Source: Acholeplasmataceae bacterium
GTDB lineage: Bacteria; Bacillota_I; Bacilli_A; ML615J-28; CAG-698
Length of the DNA: 5,082 bases
Reading direction: 5' to 3'
Assembly: GCA_012840905.1 (NCBI GenBank)
Contig: DUVT01000208.1
Span: forward strand, 1 to 5,082
In this document: in pieces, positions 680-5,082 of the stretch
How the letters are laid out: every line of letters starts with the position of its first letter
Numbering within the stretch: the first letter of the stretch is position 1
Position numbers and translations under genes: made by a program
Notes under the pieces: model-generated
What the model was told of the DNA's origin: nothing
What the model saw: only the letters and a program-made list of their open reading frames with translations
Databases searched by the model: none

Positions 680-709
680 AAAAAAGTCACCTCACAAAGT
701 TGGGGTGAC
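680..709 (-). terminator. Rho-independent terminator of the nqr operon
   Basis: GTCACCTCA (686-694) pairs with TGGGGTGAC (701-709) in a 9-bp stem with one G-T wobble and a 6-nt loop (CAAAGT). On the minus strand the stem is followed immediately by six Ts (685-680). It begins 22 nt after the nqrF stop codon. On the plus strand there is no comparable T-run after the stem, so it is oriented for the nqr transcript. Confidence 0.88.
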
Positions 710-731
710 CTTAATTTATCATAGTAATATA

Positions 732-1811
732 TTAGAACTTATCATAGAAGATATTTTCATCTTTGATGTTGTGTTTACCTAATACCTTTAAACAAGCATT
801 AATCATACCAGGAGATCCACAAAGATATGCTTCTGCATCACTTAAATCTCCAGTAAACCTATCTACAACATCAGTAATTAATCCTACTTCTCCATCCCAT
901 TCATCTTCAGGTAATGGTTCAGATAATGCAGGAATATATTCAAAGTTAGGAAATTCTTCTTGAAGTTTCTTAAACTCTTCAGTATAGTATAAGTCTTTTT
1001 TAGTTCTAGCACCAAAGAAGTACTTAACTTTACGCTTCATTCCTCTATCTTTTAAATACATAAGAATAGAACGAATTGGTGCTTTACCAGACCCACCAGC
1101 GATACAAATCATTTCACGATTAGTTTCTTCTCTTAAGTAGAAGTCACCAAATGGTCCAGTAATATAAACTTTATCTCCAACTTCTAAAGCTCTATGTACA
1201 AATGTTGTTGCTTCGCCATGAGGAACCATACGAACGATTAATTCGATTATATTCTTATCCTTTGGATTTGATGCAATAGAATATGCACGTTCAATTTCAA
1301 TTCCAGGAACTTTAAGCTGTACATATTGTCCTGGTTTGAAATCAATTGTATCAGGATCTAATAATTGTAAACGAATTAATTTTATATCATAAGTTAAATC
1401 TTCAATATGCGTAACAAGTGTCTTATATTCTTTAATATGTAGTAAGCTTGTAGGAAGTTTCACTTTAATGTTCTCTCTTACTTTTACTTGACATGCTAAG
1501 CGATAATTTTGCGCACGTTCTTCCTTGGAAATAAATGGTTCCTCTGTTGGTTTTAAACTACCACCACCTTCGTACAATCTAACCTTACATGCACCACAAG
1601 TTGCTTTACCACCACATGCAGATGGAACAAAAATATTATGTTTTGCAAGGTTAGACAATACTGATTCATCCCCATCAGCAGGAATTACAGTATCTTCATT
1701 TATTGTGATAGTTCTTTCACCAGAACTTCCTAATAATTTATCTATAACTATTAATATTAAAGTAATTAATAGTAATATACCGACCATTATTATAATTACA
1801 TAAAAGTTCAT
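732..1811 (-). CDS. nqrF: NQR-type NADH dehydrogenase subunit F (NADH:acceptor oxidoreductase, FAD and [2Fe-2S])
   Basis: This is the electron-input subunit: it oxidises NADH at the cytoplasmic face and passes electrons through FAD and a [2Fe-2S] cluster into the membrane complex. It has 359 residues. A single N-terminal membrane anchor (about 3-24) is followed by a plant-type ferredoxin domain (about 33-120) with C66, C72, C75 and C107. The C-x5-C-x2-C-x31-C spacing is that of Vibrio NqrF. The FAD domain carries RAYS (175-178) and GPFGDF (219-224). The NAD domain carries GGSGKAP (239-245), FFGAR (265-269) and CGSPG (331-335). The protein is about 50 residues shorter than Vibrio NqrF (about 408): segments before RAYS and after it are missing. 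The usual GGAGMAP and CGPP signatures read GGSGKAP and CGSPG. AGGAG (1825-1821) lies 9 nt before the ATG and overlaps the nqrE stop codon, suggesting translational coupling. It is the last gene of the operon, and a terminator follows. A related FAD/[2Fe-2S] reductase of another class is less likely given the neighbours. Confidence 0.93.
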   Translation of the reverse strand: MNFYVIIIMVGILLLITLILIVIDKLLGSSGERTITINEDTVIPADGDESVLSNLAKHNIFVPSACGGKATCGACKVRLYEGGGSLKPTEEPFISKEERAQNYRLACQVKVRENIKVKLPTSLLHIKEYKTLVTHIEDLTYDIKLIRLQLLDPDTIDFKPGQYVQLKVPGIEIERAYSIASNPKDKNIIELIVRMVPHGEATTFVHRALEVGDKVYITGPFGDFYLREETNREMICIAGGSGKAPIRSILMYLKDRGMKRKVKYFFGARTKKDLYYTEEFKKLQEEFPNFEYIPALSEPLPEDEWDGEVGLITDVVDRFTGDLSDAEAYLCGSPGMINACLKVLGKHNIKDENIFYDKF

Positions 1812-1823
1812 ATCTTCACACTC

Positions 1824-2405
1824 CTATATATTAGCTAAACCGGTAAATCCGATAAATGCTAATGATAAAATTCCTAAGATAATAAACACAATTCCTCTAC
1901 CTGCTAATCCTTTAGGTAAGTCTTGATTTTTAGCCATTTTTTCTCTAATACCTGCAACAAGTATAATAGCTAAAGCCCAACCTATACTTGAACCGAATGA
2001 AAATGCTGCTGTTTCAGTAAACGTATATTCACGGTTTACAAAGAATAATGATACAGCTAAAACAATACAGTTAACAGTTATCAGCGGTAAGAATATTCCA
2101 AATGCATTATAAAGTTTAGGGAAATACTTATCTACTACGATTTCTAAAATTTGCACAGTAGCAGCAATCGTAATAATAAAGATAAGTAAAGCTAGATAAG
2201 ATGTTCCTGTACTCTTTAATAGCATATAAATTGGATAATTAATGATTGCTGTTAGGGTAACTACAAAGATAACAGCAACACCCATTCCTTTTGCATTTTT
2301 TACGTTTGTAGAAATTGCAATTAAAGGACACATACCTAAAATATAAGCTAAAGCTATATTATGATTAGTAATCGTTGCAATTAATATTTCTATAATTCTA
2401 TCCAT
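1824..2405 (-). CDS. nqrE: NQR-type Na+-translocating NADH dehydrogenase subunit E
   Basis: This integral membrane subunit of the NQR/RNF core is homologous to RnfA and pairs with NqrD. Its 193 residues are near the usual length (Vibrio NqrE about 198), with about six hydrophobic segments. C26, in GMCPLIA, and C113, in the conserved PLITVNC motif (107-113), correspond to the two NqrE cysteines that share an intramembrane [2Fe-2S] cluster with NqrD. E88 in QILE (85-88) aligns with the acidic residue (Vibrio E95) implicated in Na+ uptake. The C-terminal part, GIREKM (152-157) then LPKGLAGRGI (163-172), resembles NqrE more than RnfA. AGAGGA (2420-2415) lies 9 nt before the ATG; the stop is TAG. 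It sits 20 nt after nqrD and 12 nt before nqrF. Confidence 0.95.
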   Translation of the reverse strand: MDRIIEILIATITNHNIALAYILGMCPLIAISTNVKNAKGMGVAVIFVVTLTAIINYPIYMLLKSTGTSYLALLIFIITIAATVQILEIVVDKYFPKLYNAFGIFLPLITVNCIVLAVSLFFVNREYTFTETAAFSFGSSIGWALAIILVAGIREKMAKNQDLPKGLAGRGIVFIILGILSLAFIGFTGLANI

Positions 2406-2425
2406 ATACTTTTATCCTCTCTTTT

Positions 2426-3067
2426 CTATGCTTCTGCTTCTATTGCTTCTGTATCGAAGTTCTTAGATGCGTGTCTGATTATCCATGCAATAACTGCAAG
2501 TACAAAGAACCCACCTGGAGCCATAGCCATTACTACCCATTTTGGAAAACTATCAGGCATTACTTGGAAGTTTAAAATAGTTCCAAATGCTAATAGTTCA
2601 CGAATAATCGAAACTAACACTAGGATATAAGTATATCCCATACCACTAGCAAATCCATCCACTAGTGTATATTTTACAGGGTTTTTAACTGCAAATGCTT
2701 CAGCTCTACCCATAACGATACAGTTTGTAATAATTAGGCCAACATATGCACCTAATGCTTTTGCAATATTAAAGAAATAAGCCTCTAAGAACATTTGTAC
2801 AACAATAACAAATGTTGAGATAACAACCATATATGTTACCATTCTTAGTTTAGAAGGTATAAAGTTTCGAATGAGTGAGATTAGTGCAGAACTTGCCATA
2901 ACAACAAATGTTACTCCAAGCCCCATCGCAATTGCATTTTCAACTTTATTTGTGATTGCTAAAGATGAACAAATACCTAATACAGCAACTACAACTTGGT
3001 TGTTTGTTAATAGTCCGCTTTTTAAAACATTAAACCATTTTTTATAACGTAAACGAATCCATTTCAT
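2426..3067 (-). CDS. nqrD: NQR-type Na+-translocating NADH dehydrogenase subunit D
   Basis: This membrane subunit is homologous to RnfE and shares inverted topology and an intramembrane iron-sulfur cluster with NqrE. It has 213 residues (typical 205-215) and about six membrane segments. C33 in GICSSLA and C116 in the signature LIITNCIVMGRAEAFA (111-126) correspond to Vibrio C29 and C112. D137 in the VDG motif aligns with Vibrio D133, one of the acidic residues implicated in Na+ movement. The GRAEAFAVK motif and the IRELL segment (155-159) are typical of NqrD. The N-terminus is basic (KWIRLRYKKW), and the C-terminus ends in a short acidic tail (EAIEAEA) made by a GCA/GAA-rich repeat near 2429-2449. 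AGGTG (3078-3074) lies 6 nt before the ATG and overlaps the end of nqrC, whose stop is 9 nt upstream. The stop is TAG. Confidence 0.95.
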   Translation of the reverse strand: MKWIRLRYKKWFNVLKSGLLTNNQVVVAVLGICSSLAITNKVENAIAMGLGVTFVVMASSALISLIRNFIPSKLRMVTYMVVISTFVIVVQMFLEAYFFNIAKALGAYVGLIITNCIVMGRAEAFAVKNPVKYTLVDGFASGMGYTYILVLVSIIRELLAFGTILNFQVMPDSFPKWVVMAMAPGGFFVLAVIAWIIRHASKNFDTEAIEAEA

Positions 3068-3076
3068 ACTCTACAC

Positions 3077-3655
3077 CTACCCTCTAGTGTCCCATGCTTC
3101 TTTTGCAGTTGCATAGTTTGTATTTAATATATTTGCGAATGCGTTTGAAGTTCTCGTTGCACCTGAAATTGCTCTAACTTCATTTTCTGGATTTGTTGGG
3201 TTTTTAGTAATTACTATTTCAGGAGTCATTTTCTTTCCAACAAAATTCTCTAAATATTGCCTTTCAGCAACAACTGCACCTAAACCAGGTGTTTCTTCTT
3301 GTTGGAGAATTGTAATGCTGGAAATAGTTTCAAAATCACTTTCCAATGTAATTACTCCAATAATCGGACCCCAAACTCCATTGCCCTCAAATACATAACT
3401 AATTTTACCAGTTGTTTTATCAACATAGAATGTAAAATCGTTGTTTTCAACTTCTTCAACAGAGTTGTCATATACATTATGAATATTTGTAAAAGTGTAA
3501 TCTATATCATAAGCTCTTAGAAGTGTTGCTTTTAATTCAGCTTCCTGATTTTCGGCAATTCTGTCTTTTGTTAAAGCATCCATTCCACCAAGAAGCACTG
3601 ATGTTACTAAACCAAGAATTAGGATGAAAATTATCATTTTCACGTAATCTTTCAT
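3077..3655 (-). CDS. nqrC: NQR/RNF-type subunit C (RnfG-like), extracytoplasmic covalent-FMN protein
   Basis: It carries a covalently bound FMN outside the membrane and relays electrons from the NqrD/E cluster toward NqrB. It has 192 residues: one N-terminal membrane anchor (about 5-23), a charged linker, and an FMN-binding domain (about 90-180). The flavinylation motif is intact: SGAT at 164-167, with T167 the expected FMN-phosphoester site for an ApbE-type flavin transferase. GVWGPIIG (93-100) and EETPGLGA (120-127) are further family signatures. The length matches RnfG or short NqrC proteins and is well below Vibrio NqrC (about 257). No apbE gene is in the window, so the transferase must be encoded elsewhere. 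The ATG overlaps the nqrB stop in an ATGA arrangement, which implies translational coupling; AGAGGTG (3667-3661) lies 5 nt upstream inside nqrB. The stop is TAG. Confidence 0.94.
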   Translation of the reverse strand: MKDYVKMIIFILILGLVTSVLLGGMDALTKDRIAENQEAELKATLLRAYDIDYTFTNIHNVYDNSVEEVENNDFTFYVDKTTGKISYVFEGNGVWGPIIGVITLESDFETISSITILQQEETPGLGAVVAERQYLENFVGKKMTPEIVITKNPTNPENEVRAISGATRTSNAFANILNTNYATAKEAWDTRG

Positions 3656-4584
3656 GCTTCCACCTCTTTTTGTTCAGATTCAACTTCTTTTGGTTGTCTC
3701 CAGTTATCTATTAAGCCACTAGTTGCATTCATAATAATAACAGCAAAGATTACCCCTTCATAGAATGCAGAATAATGACGAATAATTACTGTTAAAAGAC
3801 CTAAACCAATCCCAAACACAACTCTACCCCATGGTTTTACAGGTGCTGCAACCGGATCTGTTGCAACAAAGAATGCACTGAATAATAAACCGCCAGTAAA
3901 GATTGCATAATGTGCAGCATAGAATGAATCTGCATCAATTAATCCACCAACAAAAGTTGCAACAAATACAGTAACTACAAATGTTAATGGAATACGCCAA
4001 TCTATAATCTTAAGAGCTATTAATACTAAGCCCAATACAATTATGGCAGCACTAATTGTTTCACCAACTGCACCTGGCACATTACCAATTAATAGATCGG
4101 TAAACTTATAATTAAATAAATTAAGTTTTAAGTCAAGAATTGGAGTTCTTGTGATTATATCACCCGTTTGCGGATTAAGCCATTGTGTTAACATTTCATT
4201 CGGGAATGATATCATTAAAAATAGTACACCCACTGCTGCAGGATTAAAGATATACTTCCCAGTTCCCCCAAACACTGCTTTTCCAAAGAAAACACCAAAA
4301 AATGAACCAATTAATACTAACCACCATGGTGATGTAGGTGGCATTAGTAATGTAAACACCATTGGTGTTACAAACCAGGCTTTATCAAGCGGTCGCTTTC
4401 TCACTTTTGAAAATGCATGCTCAACAACTAAGGCAACAGCATAACTAACTGCCCCCATGAGCAACACATTTAAGCCGAAGATTATTATTCCTCCTATGAA
4501 TAACAACCCCAAAGCACCAGTGAAAATGAGAAGATTTTTTTGAGTTAGTACATCTAAATGACTAGATGTTTTTGTTTCTACCAT
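3652..4584 (-). CDS. nqrB: NQR/RNF-type subunit B (RnfD-like), main membrane subunit with a degenerate flavinylation motif
   Basis: This is the large polytopic subunit, thought to form the Na+ path and hold FMN and riboflavin near the output end. Its 310 residues contain about 10 hydrophobic segments, the length of RnfD rather than Vibrio NqrB (about 415). Conserved blocks include PMVFTLLMPP (74-83), GKAVFGGTGKYIFNPAA (101-117), LIGNVPGAVGET (165-176) and ATDPVAAPV (241-249). D293 near the C-terminus aligns with Vibrio D397, implicated in Na+ uptake. The loop that normally carries DxxSGAT reads GDIITRTPI (141-149). T147 keeps the Thr-Pro context of RnfD-type sites, but the Gly-Ala before it is gone, so covalent FMN here is uncertain. 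The reading frame is clean on both sides, so a frameshift is unlikely. The ATG has AAAGGTG (4598-4592) 7 nt upstream. It is the first gene of the operon, and no nqrA precedes it. The TGA stop overlaps the nqrC start. Confidence 0.93.
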   Translation of the reverse strand: MVETKTSSHLDVLTQKNLLIFTGALGLLFIGGIIIFGLNVLLMGAVSYAVALVVEHAFSKVRKRPLDKAWFVTPMVFTLLMPPTSPWWLVLIGSFFGVFFGKAVFGGTGKYIFNPAAVGVLFLMISFPNEMLTQWLNPQTGDIITRTPILDLKLNLFNYKFTDLLIGNVPGAVGETISAAIIVLGLVLIALKIIDWRIPLTFVVTVFVATFVGGLIDADSFYAAHYAIFTGGLLFSAFFVATDPVAAPVKPWGRVVFGIGLGLLTVIIRHYSAFYEGVIFAVIIMNATSGLIDNWRQPKEVESEQKEVEA

Positions 4585-4595
4585 AACTTCACACC

Positions 4596-4615
4596 TTTCG
4601 CATATTTTTTTCGCA
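4596..4615 (-). repeat. Direct repeat TGCGAAA in the nqrB leader, abutting the ribosome binding site
   Basis: On the minus strand TGCGAAA occurs twice (4615-4609 and 4602-4596), 13 bp apart, separated by an A/T spacer. The second copy runs directly into the GGTG of the ribosome binding site. Upstream in the same predicted leader are runs of nine and seven Ts (about 4622-4640). A regulatory role is possible but rests only on position and repetition. Confidence 0.3.
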
Positions 4616-4654
4616 ATGATTTAAAAAAAAATCAAAAAAATCACTGATATCATA

Positions 4655-4683
4655 ATTTTAGCATATTTAAAATAATGTGTCTT
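4655..4683 (-). promoter_or_regulatory. Predicted promoter of the nqrBCDEF operon
   Basis: On the minus strand, AAGACA (4683-4678, 4 of 6 to TTGACA) is followed after 17 bp by TAAAAT (4660-4655). TGC directly before it gives an extended -10 (TGnTAAAAT). The expected start, near 4648, leaves a leader of about 64 nt before nqrB. This is the only well-spaced candidate I found upstream of nqrB, and it supports nqrB as the true first gene of the unit. Confidence 0.6.
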
Positions 4684-4792
4684 GTAATATACATACCAAA
4701 ATAAAACCTTTTCATTTGATGTTCAAAATAATATAAAATGCAATAAAAAACACATAAAAGAATCTCTAATAGAGTTAAAATTAACATAAATA

Positions 4793-4817
4793 GGAAAATG
4801 TTTCCATGTTGGAAAAT
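4793..4817. promoter_or_regulatory. Operator-like palindromic cluster over the -35 of the permease promoter
   Basis: TTTCCA (4801-4806) and TGGAAA (4810-4815) form a perfect 6-bp inverted repeat with a 3-nt centre. Just upstream GGAAA (4793-4797) pairs with the same TTTCC around ATG. The result is two direct GGAAAAT copies (4793-4799 and 4811-4817) 18 bp apart, flanking one inverted copy. The cluster covers the predicted -35 box, where a bound regulator would block or alter transcription. I do not recognise the site as that of a known regulator. Confidence 0.4.
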
Positions 4818-4830
4818 TATTTGTTATAAT
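4801..4830 (+). promoter_or_regulatory. Promoter of the SLC13-type permease gene
   Basis: A perfect TATAAT (4825-4830) is preceded by TG-T (4822-4824), a strong extended -10. TTTCCA (4801-4806) is a moderate -35 (4 of 6) at 18-bp spacing. The expected start, near 4837, gives a leader of about 25 nt that includes the AGAAAGAGAG ribosome binding site (4846-4855) ahead of the ATG at 4862. Confidence 0.75.
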
Positions 4831-4861
4831 TTATTTCTGTGAACTAGAAAGAGAGAACTTT

Positions 4862-5082
4862 ATGAAGAGTATAGTAGATTCAGAATTAGAAGGATCAATT
4901 AAACCAATAACTAGAAACTATCCTTTAACTAAAATTAACGAATTTATAAAAAAGCAAATAGTCTTAACTATTGCAATAATTATAATGTTAATTACGATTA
5001 TCTTTGTACCAATAGATAAAACATATTTAACATATTTTAATTTACCTACACTTGCAACGTTATTTTGCACTTTAGCTGTAGT
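4862..5082 (+). CDS. SLC13-family (CitT/ArsB-like) anion permease, N-terminal fragment
   Basis: An ATG at 4862 opens a frame of 73 complete codons that runs off the right edge. The start is supported by AGAAAGAGAG 6 nt upstream and an extended -10 promoter. The protein begins with a hydrophilic tail (about 1-33) ending in the basic stretch IKKQ. A hydrophobic membrane segment follows (about 34-51). Residues 48-73 read FVPIDK, then TYLTYFNLPTL, then LFCTLAVV. 'Membrane helix, FVP-x-DK, Y-F/D-x-x-T-L, LFC-x-x-AVV' is the pattern I know from the beginning of bacterial SLC13-type permeases of the ion transporter superfamily, which move dicarboxylates, citrate, sulfate, arsenite or similar anions, often with Na+. 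The substrate cannot be told from the fragment. It is divergent from the nqr operon and shares its control region. Confidence 0.72.
   Translation, partial: MKSIVDSELEGSIKPITRNYPLTKINEFIKKQIVLTIAIIIMLITIIFVPIDKTYLTYFNLPTLATLFCTLAV

Follow-up and report, generated by a model that had tools for sequence, protein, structure and literature searches.

NqrBCDEF operons without nqrA in Mollicutes-like Bacilli: a separate branch of the NQR/RNF family with a predicted non-quinone electron acceptor

The nqrBCDEF locus

The stretch of DNA analysed here (hereafter the window) is the complete 5,082-base contig C128 of G000, the draft genome of the host (308 contigs totaling 1.25 Mb, with a completeness of 82% and a contamination of 2%), and carries an operon for five subunits of an NQR-type redox pump, NqrB to NqrF, without a gene for NqrA. 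The five open reading frames (ORFs), all on the minus strand, match NqrB/RnfD, NqrC/RnfG, NqrD, NqrE and NqrF and are arranged in the order nqrBCDEF from position 4584 down to 732, with gaps of 9-20 bases between neighbors and a 4-base overlap of nqrB and nqrC. The first gene, nqrB (3652..4584, 310 amino acids), encodes an NqrB/RnfD-type membrane subunit with a short N-terminus, and nqrC (3077..3655, 192 amino acids) encodes the extracytosolic subunit that binds flavin mononucleotide (FMN) and contains an SGAT flavinylation motif. The next two genes, nqrD (2426..3067, 213 amino acids) and nqrE (1824..2405, 193 amino acids), each encode both cluster cysteines, and nqrF (732..1811, 359 amino acids) encodes the entry subunit for NADH, with flavin adenine dinucleotide (FAD) and a [2Fe-2S] cluster.

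The subunits were typed by their scores against NCBIfam models and the cut-offs of these models, together with Pfam. The NqrF protein reaches 295.1 bits with the nqrF model (cut-off 295), has NqrF of Na+-NQR as its best PDB match, and contains all the [2Fe-2S], FAD and NADH motifs; all four cluster cysteines are present in NqrD and NqrE together. For NqrB (PF03116, 271.6 bits), the best NCBIfam model is RnfD (212.2 bits, above the cut-off), and for NqrC (PF04205, 59 bits) it is NqrC (84.5 bits, below the cut-off of 144). NqrD scores 218.6 and 220.3 bits with the nqrD models, below their cut-offs (235 for the best one), and also passes the RsxE cut-off (187.8 vs 184 bits); NqrE scores 196.0 bits with the nqrE model (cut-off 247.6) against 179.7 bits with rnfA, both below cut-off. 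A previous reading of this DNA from the letters alone (the sequence-only reading) described a mixture of NQR-like D, E and F subunits with B and C subunits of RNF-like length. The RNF-like lengths of B and C are confirmed, but a chimera does not show in the tree, where B, D and E, analyzed jointly, form one lineage on the NQR side (see below).

Upstream of nqrB, and divergent from it, lies the 5' end of a CitMHS-type transporter gene (4862..5082, plus strand; PF03600, judged from a full-length relative), so that the operon starts at nqrB with neither nqrA nor rnfC ahead of it, as the sequence-only reading had it. The promoter and leader that this reading assigned to the operon are less firm: the intergenic region between nqrB and the transporter gene that would hold them (4585..4861, strand not assigned) is evident, but promoter-like sites in the window are at chance level (33 vs a shuffle mean of 29.3, standard deviation 5.9) and no Rfam family reaches the threshold in the window. 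The proposed terminator after nqrF (680..709, minus strand) is visible on inspection of the sequence as a G+C-rich hairpin, GTCACC...GGTGAC, at 686-709, with a run of six T (685-680) next to it on the minus strand, but a scan tool reports the hairpin on the plus strand only. To the left of the operon lies yjdM (269-592).

Missing subunit and the rnf operon of the host

No match to NqrA (PF05896) was detected in the G000 draft, which is 82% complete. The whole-genome search covered 20 genomes, namely G000 and 19 relatives with the same type of nqr operon. Fifteen of these, G000 included, have no match, and the other five have weak ones (20-25 bits, one of them 0.1 bit above the cut-off); four of the five fall on the RnfC gene of the respective genome and the fifth (G028) on a separate 533-amino-acid frame. 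Thus, no convincing NqrA match was found among the 19 relatives.

Conversely, RnfC is encoded in G000 and in all 19 relatives (20 of 20). In G000, the rnfC gene is located on contig C220 and is followed by rnfD, rnfG, rnfE, rnfA and an RnfB-like ORF that is named by look only and encodes just 106 amino acids. The RnfD protein of this operon (L236:1412-3619, contig C220) consists of 735 amino acids, with FMN_bind domains in its C-terminal half, a combination that recurs in the 47 best of its 120 listed homologues. Given that rnfC belongs to a separate, apparently complete rnf operon, nqrBCDEF is not a split operon, as far as the drafts show. The absence of a peripheral A or C subunit from the locus, as originally proposed, therefore holds; for the distant nqrA gene that was offered as one explanation, no match was detected in the G000 draft, and the rnfC gene that was to be looked for elsewhere does exist but within an operon of its own. 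A split operon with a distant nqrA was accordingly rejected.

Conservation and phylogeny of the A-less operons

The conservation of the gene set was assessed in 80 loci returned from the genome collection. In 42 of these, nqrF is found within five ORFs after nqrB and no RnfC-like ORF precedes nqrB (hereafter A-less operons); three further loci (L030, L048 and L052) end before nqrF. No NqrB ORF was called in six of the 80 (L078, L089, L091, L095, L097 and L102), and in L034 the D and E genes are hidden by an antisense ORF. The A-less label rests on phmmer searches with RnfC of G000, which pick up NqrA only weakly (L099, 15 bits; L100, 19 bits). The hosts are named as Acholeplasmataceae, Izimaplasma, Mollicutes, Tenericutes, Erysipelotrichaceae and Bacillota, and include Paracholeplasma vituli, Haploplasma modicum, Peloplasma aerotolerans and the closed chromosomes zrk7 and zrk2.

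For phylogenetic analysis, NqrB/RnfD, NqrD/RnfE and NqrE/RnfA were combined in a midpoint-rooted tree of 62 rows and 707 columns, restricted to loci in which B, D and E are all called and omitting 10 near-identical A-less rows. The rows comprise 13 RNF operons, six NQR operons with NqrA, six hybrids in which an RnfC-type subunit accompanies nqrBCDEF, and 37 A-less/C-less operons, the latter including L030 and L052, the contigs of which stop before nqrF. Four rows (L085, L086, L088 and L098) are labeled RNF, with no RnfC seen beside L085 and L088. Among the NQR rows, NqrA is identified by Pfam in L099 only (three NqrA domains), by similarity in L100 and by record annotation in the other four; among the hybrids, the C subunits of L066 and L075 contain the RnfC, FMN-site and Fe-S domains by Pfam, and the others are assigned by phmmer score only.

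The A-less/C-less set, with the window, forms a single clade (100/100), so that the gene set without nqrA is indeed conserved in related genomes, as the sequence-only reading had suggested checking. The nearest row to this clade is the hybrid L075 (100/97), followed by the other five hybrids. The NQR operons with NqrA form a separate clade (100/100) that does not include the window. The hybrids, in which NqrF replaces RnfB, appear to be intermediate forms linking RNF with A-less NQR. Because the tree places the A-less clade beside operons that combine an RnfC-type subunit with nqrBCDEF, the lost subunit most likely was RnfC. Under the simplest history, an Rnf-like core probably gained NqrF first, with RnfC lost at a later stage and NqrA absent throughout. 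The notion of a classical NQR minus nqrA is not borne out by this topology, and loss of NqrA from a classical NQR was rejected as less likely on the same grounds.

Several further features of these loci are worth recording. The six hybrids (L059, L066, L068, L071, L072 and L075) come from Planctomycetota, Lentisphaerota, Armatimonadota, a Firmicutes and two other hosts. No neighbor gene is common to most A-less loci; the commonest ones, ABC ATPase-like and RidA-like by look only, occur in 14 and 9 loci, respectively. A small lipoprotein-like ORF (149-157 amino acids) follows nqrF in five loci (L027, L028, L037, L039 and L046), and the copy in L046 has no Pfam match. The NqrC protein of Haploplasma modicum (L063:10882-13425) is 847 amino acids long; besides a single FMN_bind domain, it has a long additional region that matches nothing in Pfam.

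Placement of the operon in the host genome

Among 43 genomes searched from the host's order, NqrF (E <= 1e-30) is found in one, G000 itself, and in none of the 24 good-quality ones. The genes on both sides of the operon show a different affinity. The YjdM protein of the window is 84% identical to that of G006, a member of the host family, vs 68% to that of Haploplasma, with matches in three of 55 genomes. The start of the transporter is 76% identical over 49 residues to that of G004 and 52-60% to those of three more family members, vs at most 43% in three Acholeplasmataceae, with matches in eight of the 55 genomes. The tetranucleotide distance to the G000 mean is 0.22 for the window and 0.24 for its nqr part, within the span of 12 stretches of G000 (0.15-0.42); 38 stretches of nine picked Acholeplasma- or Izimaplasma-type loci lie at 0.23-0.75. 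These comparisons suggest that nqrBCDEF is likely a horizontally acquired operon inserted between resident genes. In G004 (L230:4027-11346), the CitMHS transporter gene, which reads as two overlapping ORFs, is divergent from an rnf operon, as its counterpart in the window is from nqrBCDEF; hence either kind of redox pump can be found at this position.

The solitary occurrence of NqrF in the order, together with the Acholeplasmataceae-type affinity of the nearest named NqrB relatives, could also indicate that the contig was mis-binned and that the operon comes from an Acholeplasma-like organism rather than from G000; moreover, G006, the source of the closest YjdM, is itself 6% contaminated. Both neighboring genes, however, are closer to the host family than to Acholeplasmataceae, and the tetranucleotide usage of the window lies inside the range of G000, which makes mis-binning very improbable and leaves horizontal acquisition as the preferred explanation.

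Cofactor sites across the A-less operons

The cofactor motifs of the predicted route from NADH to the outer face of the membrane, from NqrF to NqrC, are kept. The acceptor threonine of NqrC is kept in all 34 A-less rows checked, and the NqrD/E cysteines in every A-less locus with both ORFs called. NqrB shows a different pattern. Its sites were mapped through alignments to the solved RnfD and NqrB structures, and the roles of the residues follow the passages of PMC9325719 on the Vibrio cholerae enzyme, according to which the N-terminus of NqrB is wrapped around NqrA and makes up the inhibitor pocket. The FMN-type threonine of NqrB is lost in 10 of the 37 A-less rows, through five changes on the tree, and in none of the 25 other rows (two RNF rows have serine). 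The alanine before it is kept in 14 of the 37 A-less rows vs 24 of the 25 others; for Asn200, a residue of the riboflavin site, the corresponding figures are 20 of 37 and 24 of 25. The equivalent of Glu157 in the inhibitor pocket is kept in two of 37 A-less rows vs all 12 NQR and hybrid rows. The number of residues before the Thr162 equivalent is 133-154 in NQR with NqrA, 65-114 in RNF and 34-135 (median 73) in A-less operons.

NqrB of the window has 72 residues ahead of the Thr162 equivalent, a lysine at the Glu157 equivalent and a tyrosine at the Asn200 equivalent. Its FMN-type threonine (T147) is kept, preceded by arginine, although the motif around it is degenerate (ITRTP instead of [S/T]GA[S/T]). 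Judging from the sequences, the outward path from NqrF to NqrC is kept in the A-less clade while the return path through NqrB is eroding.

Electrons might nevertheless take the way back through NqrB and be accepted on the cytoplasmic side by an unrelated or shared docking subunit, such as RnfC of the host or a soluble redox protein. Most residues of the riboflavin site are indeed kept, RnfC is encoded in every genome tested, and the closest relatives of the A-less operons, L075 and the other hybrids, carry an RnfC-type subunit; the constant presence of NqrB is uninformative in this respect because the loci were found with NqrB. We nonetheless regard such a return as unlikely: RnfC of G000 belongs to a family-type rnf operon whereas the nqr operon appears foreign to the family, NADH electrons passing through RnfC would presumably go back to NAD+ and drive nothing, and loss of the FMN threonine is confined to the A-less clade among the rows compared. 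Exit of the electrons at NqrC thus appears preferable.

Quinones and flavinylation

A UbiA-family prenyltransferase is, to our knowledge, a requirement of every known quinone route. No match to this family (PF01040) was detected in 19 of the 20 genomes, including G000 and the closed chromosomes zrk7 and zrk2, whereas all 14 control genomes were positive, which argues against quinones in these hosts. ApbE, in turn, is encoded in a single copy in each of the 20 genomes, so that flavinylation is available to all of them. Small stand-alone FMN_bind frames are present in eight of the 20 (G032, G035, G038, G039 and G043-G046).

The enzyme could still be a quinone reductase in which NqrB alone reduces quinone, which the host would take up from its surroundings or synthesize with genes that the draft does not cover. 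The statement in the relevant section of a 2025 review that NqrA is cofactor-free and that electrons pass directly to ubiquinone in the membrane (PMC12174285) would agree with this possibility, as would the 82% completeness of the G000 draft and the UbiA-family match in one A-less genome, G046. The lack of UbiA matches extends to the two closed chromosomes, however, and the N-terminal segment that forms the pocket is short, with Glu157 lost in 35 of the 37 A-less rows. Quinone reduction therefore seems to us quite unlikely, and delivery of electrons to an acceptor other than quinone is favored.

A ten-gene operon in a sister branch

A candidate for such an acceptor is found in a sister branch. 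In L060 and L062, genes for the cytochrome bd subunits CydA and CydB, for an RnfD-like FMN_bind protein and for an RnfE/RnfA-like pair directly precede nqrBCDEF on one strand. A search for the RnfD-like protein, which has one FMN_bind domain in L060 and four in L062, in 160 genomes of that order yielded five strong matches (186-706 bits), the rest scoring at most 52 bits, with 69 genomes having any match. The ten genes are located on one contig in G039, G062, G103 and G144 (where cydA is cut by the contig end) and are split over two contigs in G146; the corresponding loci are L270:3002-13108 (G039), L060, L267, L269 and, for the two-contig case, L268 with L271. The RnfE/RnfA-like pair lacks cysteines in all five genomes (one RnfE-like ORF is cut), and the FMN-type threonine of NqrB is lost in four of the five.

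The CydA proteins of these operons consist of 389-404 amino acids where complete. In CydA of L062, only 15 residues take the place of the approximately 129 (254-382) in which the quinol loop (Q-loop) of E. coli bd-II lies, and in G039, G062 and G033 the match to the CydA Pfam profile falls into two segments that leave out positions ~249-309. According to the portion of PMC8951039 that deals with this loop, it contains a conserved glutamate and a conserved lysine needed for quinol oxidation. Neither G039 nor G033 has a UbiA match. In G033 (L198:7830-11657), cydA and cydB are followed by RnfD- and FMN_bind-like genes far from nqrBCDEF. Taken together, these observations point to a candidate quinone-free chain in the sister branch, which would lead from NADH through NqrBCDEF and flavin domains to cytochrome bd and O2.

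Two additional observations concern these genomes and their CydA proteins. G033 also has two rnf operons (L199 and L200). All 120 listed relatives of L062 CydA (P0121-P0240), including those of Izimaplasma HR1 and Xianfuyuplasma, are 304-409 amino acids long, two of them being fragment-like; a short-loop CydA may be general in this group. Among the papers listed in our literature search, for which subscription papers were mostly outside reach, none described a cyd-rnf-nqr operon. For an Izemoplasma isolate, complex I and cytochrome bd are said, in the pertinent passage of PMC8397711, to interact with a quinone pool.

Proposed mechanism

In view of the apparent loss of quinones, the retention of the outward path and the erosion of the return path, the mechanism most likely is an export of electrons at NqrC. 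The route would be that of the solved V. cholerae enzyme: electrons of NADH would enter through FAD and the [2Fe-2S] cluster of NqrF, pass to the [2Fe-2S] cluster of NqrD/E and reach the FMN of NqrC, where they would leave the complex on the outer face of the membrane. In the sister branch, the acceptor likely would be the cytochrome bd that lacks most of the quinol loop, wired by flavin domains for which the ten-gene operon also has the genes. In general terms, the A-less NqrBCDEF is predicted to oxidize NADH, pump Na+ and deliver electrons, likely by way of the outer-face FMN of NqrC, to a non-quinone acceptor, a prediction for which we consider the chances about evenly balanced. The export of electrons to another acceptor, one of two possibilities raised in the sequence-only reading, is consistent with the cofactor sites that are kept and those that are eroding, and no UbiA match was detected in G000; the secreted flavoprotein suggested there as an example of the acceptor was not found in G000, where the FMN_bind matches other than NqrC all belong to the rnf operon.

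Several observations weigh against this prediction. The loss of riboflavin ligands in NqrB is only partial: the Asn203 equivalent is kept in 30 of 37 A-less rows (25 of 25 others), the Asp346 equivalent is Asp or Glu in all rows (37 of 37 A-less), and the Thr162 equivalent is variable in every group except the hybrids, RNF and NQR included, so that electrons may still return through NqrB. The threonine at the FMN site is kept in the window, and 115 of the 120 listed nearest homologues of its NqrB have Thr or Ser at this site, hence the NqrB flavin probably is still attached in close relatives. A short N-terminus of NqrB is also typical of RNF and varies in length among the A-less operons, and no RNF row has the Glu157 equivalent. 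With respect to the acceptor, no dedicated flavoprotein was found in G000, its four FMN_bind matches being NqrC and three in the rnf operon, and the sole FMN_bind match in the closed chromosome G028 is its NqrC; with stand-alone FMN_bind frames missing from these two genomes, a dedicated flavoprotein acceptor is not general. CydA was found above the cut-off in three of 28 genomes searched, weakly in one, and was absent from 24, including G000, which makes cytochrome bd the solution of one branch and not a general one. Furthermore, the A-less genome G046 has the UbiA-family match mentioned above, nqrA, ubiA or cydA could lie in the part of the genome absent from the 82%-complete draft of G000, and Na+ pumping would be a property carried over from the family.

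We tentatively go one step further and propose, as a possibility about which we have more doubt than confidence, that NqrBCDEF provides the entry point to a respiratory chain wired by flavins and free of quinone, which in one branch would run through FMN domains to the loop-less cytochrome bd, and that the operon in the window is a horizontally moved copy of this entry module.

Significance and comparison with known systems

If this proposal is correct, it would describe a respiratory chain in which protein-bound flavins replace the quinone pool and through which wall-less, fermentation-type bacteria gain ion-pumping respiration; the annotations NADH:ubiquinone oxidoreductase and ubiquinol oxidase would then be wrong descriptions of its components. 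The gene set itself is already in print. NqrBCDEF without NqrA has been noted in Thermotoga (Pseudothermotoga) thermarum and T. lettingae, where the passage concerned stated in 2014 that the partner of NADH was unknown (PMC4148951), and in Clostridium ultunense, for which the corresponding passage suggests an acceptor whose potential is more negative than that of quinone (PMC5924567). The question of the acceptor that was posed in 2014 is now testable, given that the hosts appear quinone-free, the NqrB path erodes while the outward path is kept, and five genomes join the operon to flavin domains and to a cytochrome bd in which most of the quinol loop is missing. These Thermotoga and C. ultunense operons have the same five genes as the window in the same order and likewise lack NqrA, whereas the present set comes from Mollicutes-like Bacilli and has its sister group and the erosion of NqrB measured. 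The NqrBCDEF of 'Ca. Izimaplasma' ZiA1, named a Na+-transporting NADH:ubiquinone oxidoreductase and reported likewise for Acholeplasma palmae (PMC6256511), likely corresponds to the system described here and comes from the same organism group; that paper is silent on the missing NqrA and on quinones.

With the Na+-NQR of V. cholerae, the window shares the cofactor motifs of NqrF, NqrD/E and NqrC and the gene order from B to F; it differs in the lack of NqrA, the short N-terminus and degenerate FMN motif of NqrB, the placement in a separate clade, and a host without a UbiA match. RNF (RnfABCDGE) is approached in that NqrB of the window scores best with the RnfD model and the host also has an rnf operon, but the window has NqrF for NADH entry in place of RnfB, lacks RnfC in the operon and belongs to a separate clade. 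Closest in the tree are the RnfC+nqrBCDEF hybrids, which also have NqrF and the order BCDEF and differ by the RnfC-type subunit that they have kept. For the two-subunit 'NQR/RNF-like' flavinylation systems, the passages devoted to them propose that electrons move in one direction, with NAD(P)H as donor and an extracytosolic flavin as recipient (PMC8238504, PMC11334425), and describe an NqrB-like part without a flavinylation site, the NqrB/RnfD-like domain being fused to a NAD-binding domain, and one further subunit; the window, unlike these, retains the route through NqrF, NqrD/E and NqrC. The A-less operons are a branch distinct from the NQR that contains NqrA.

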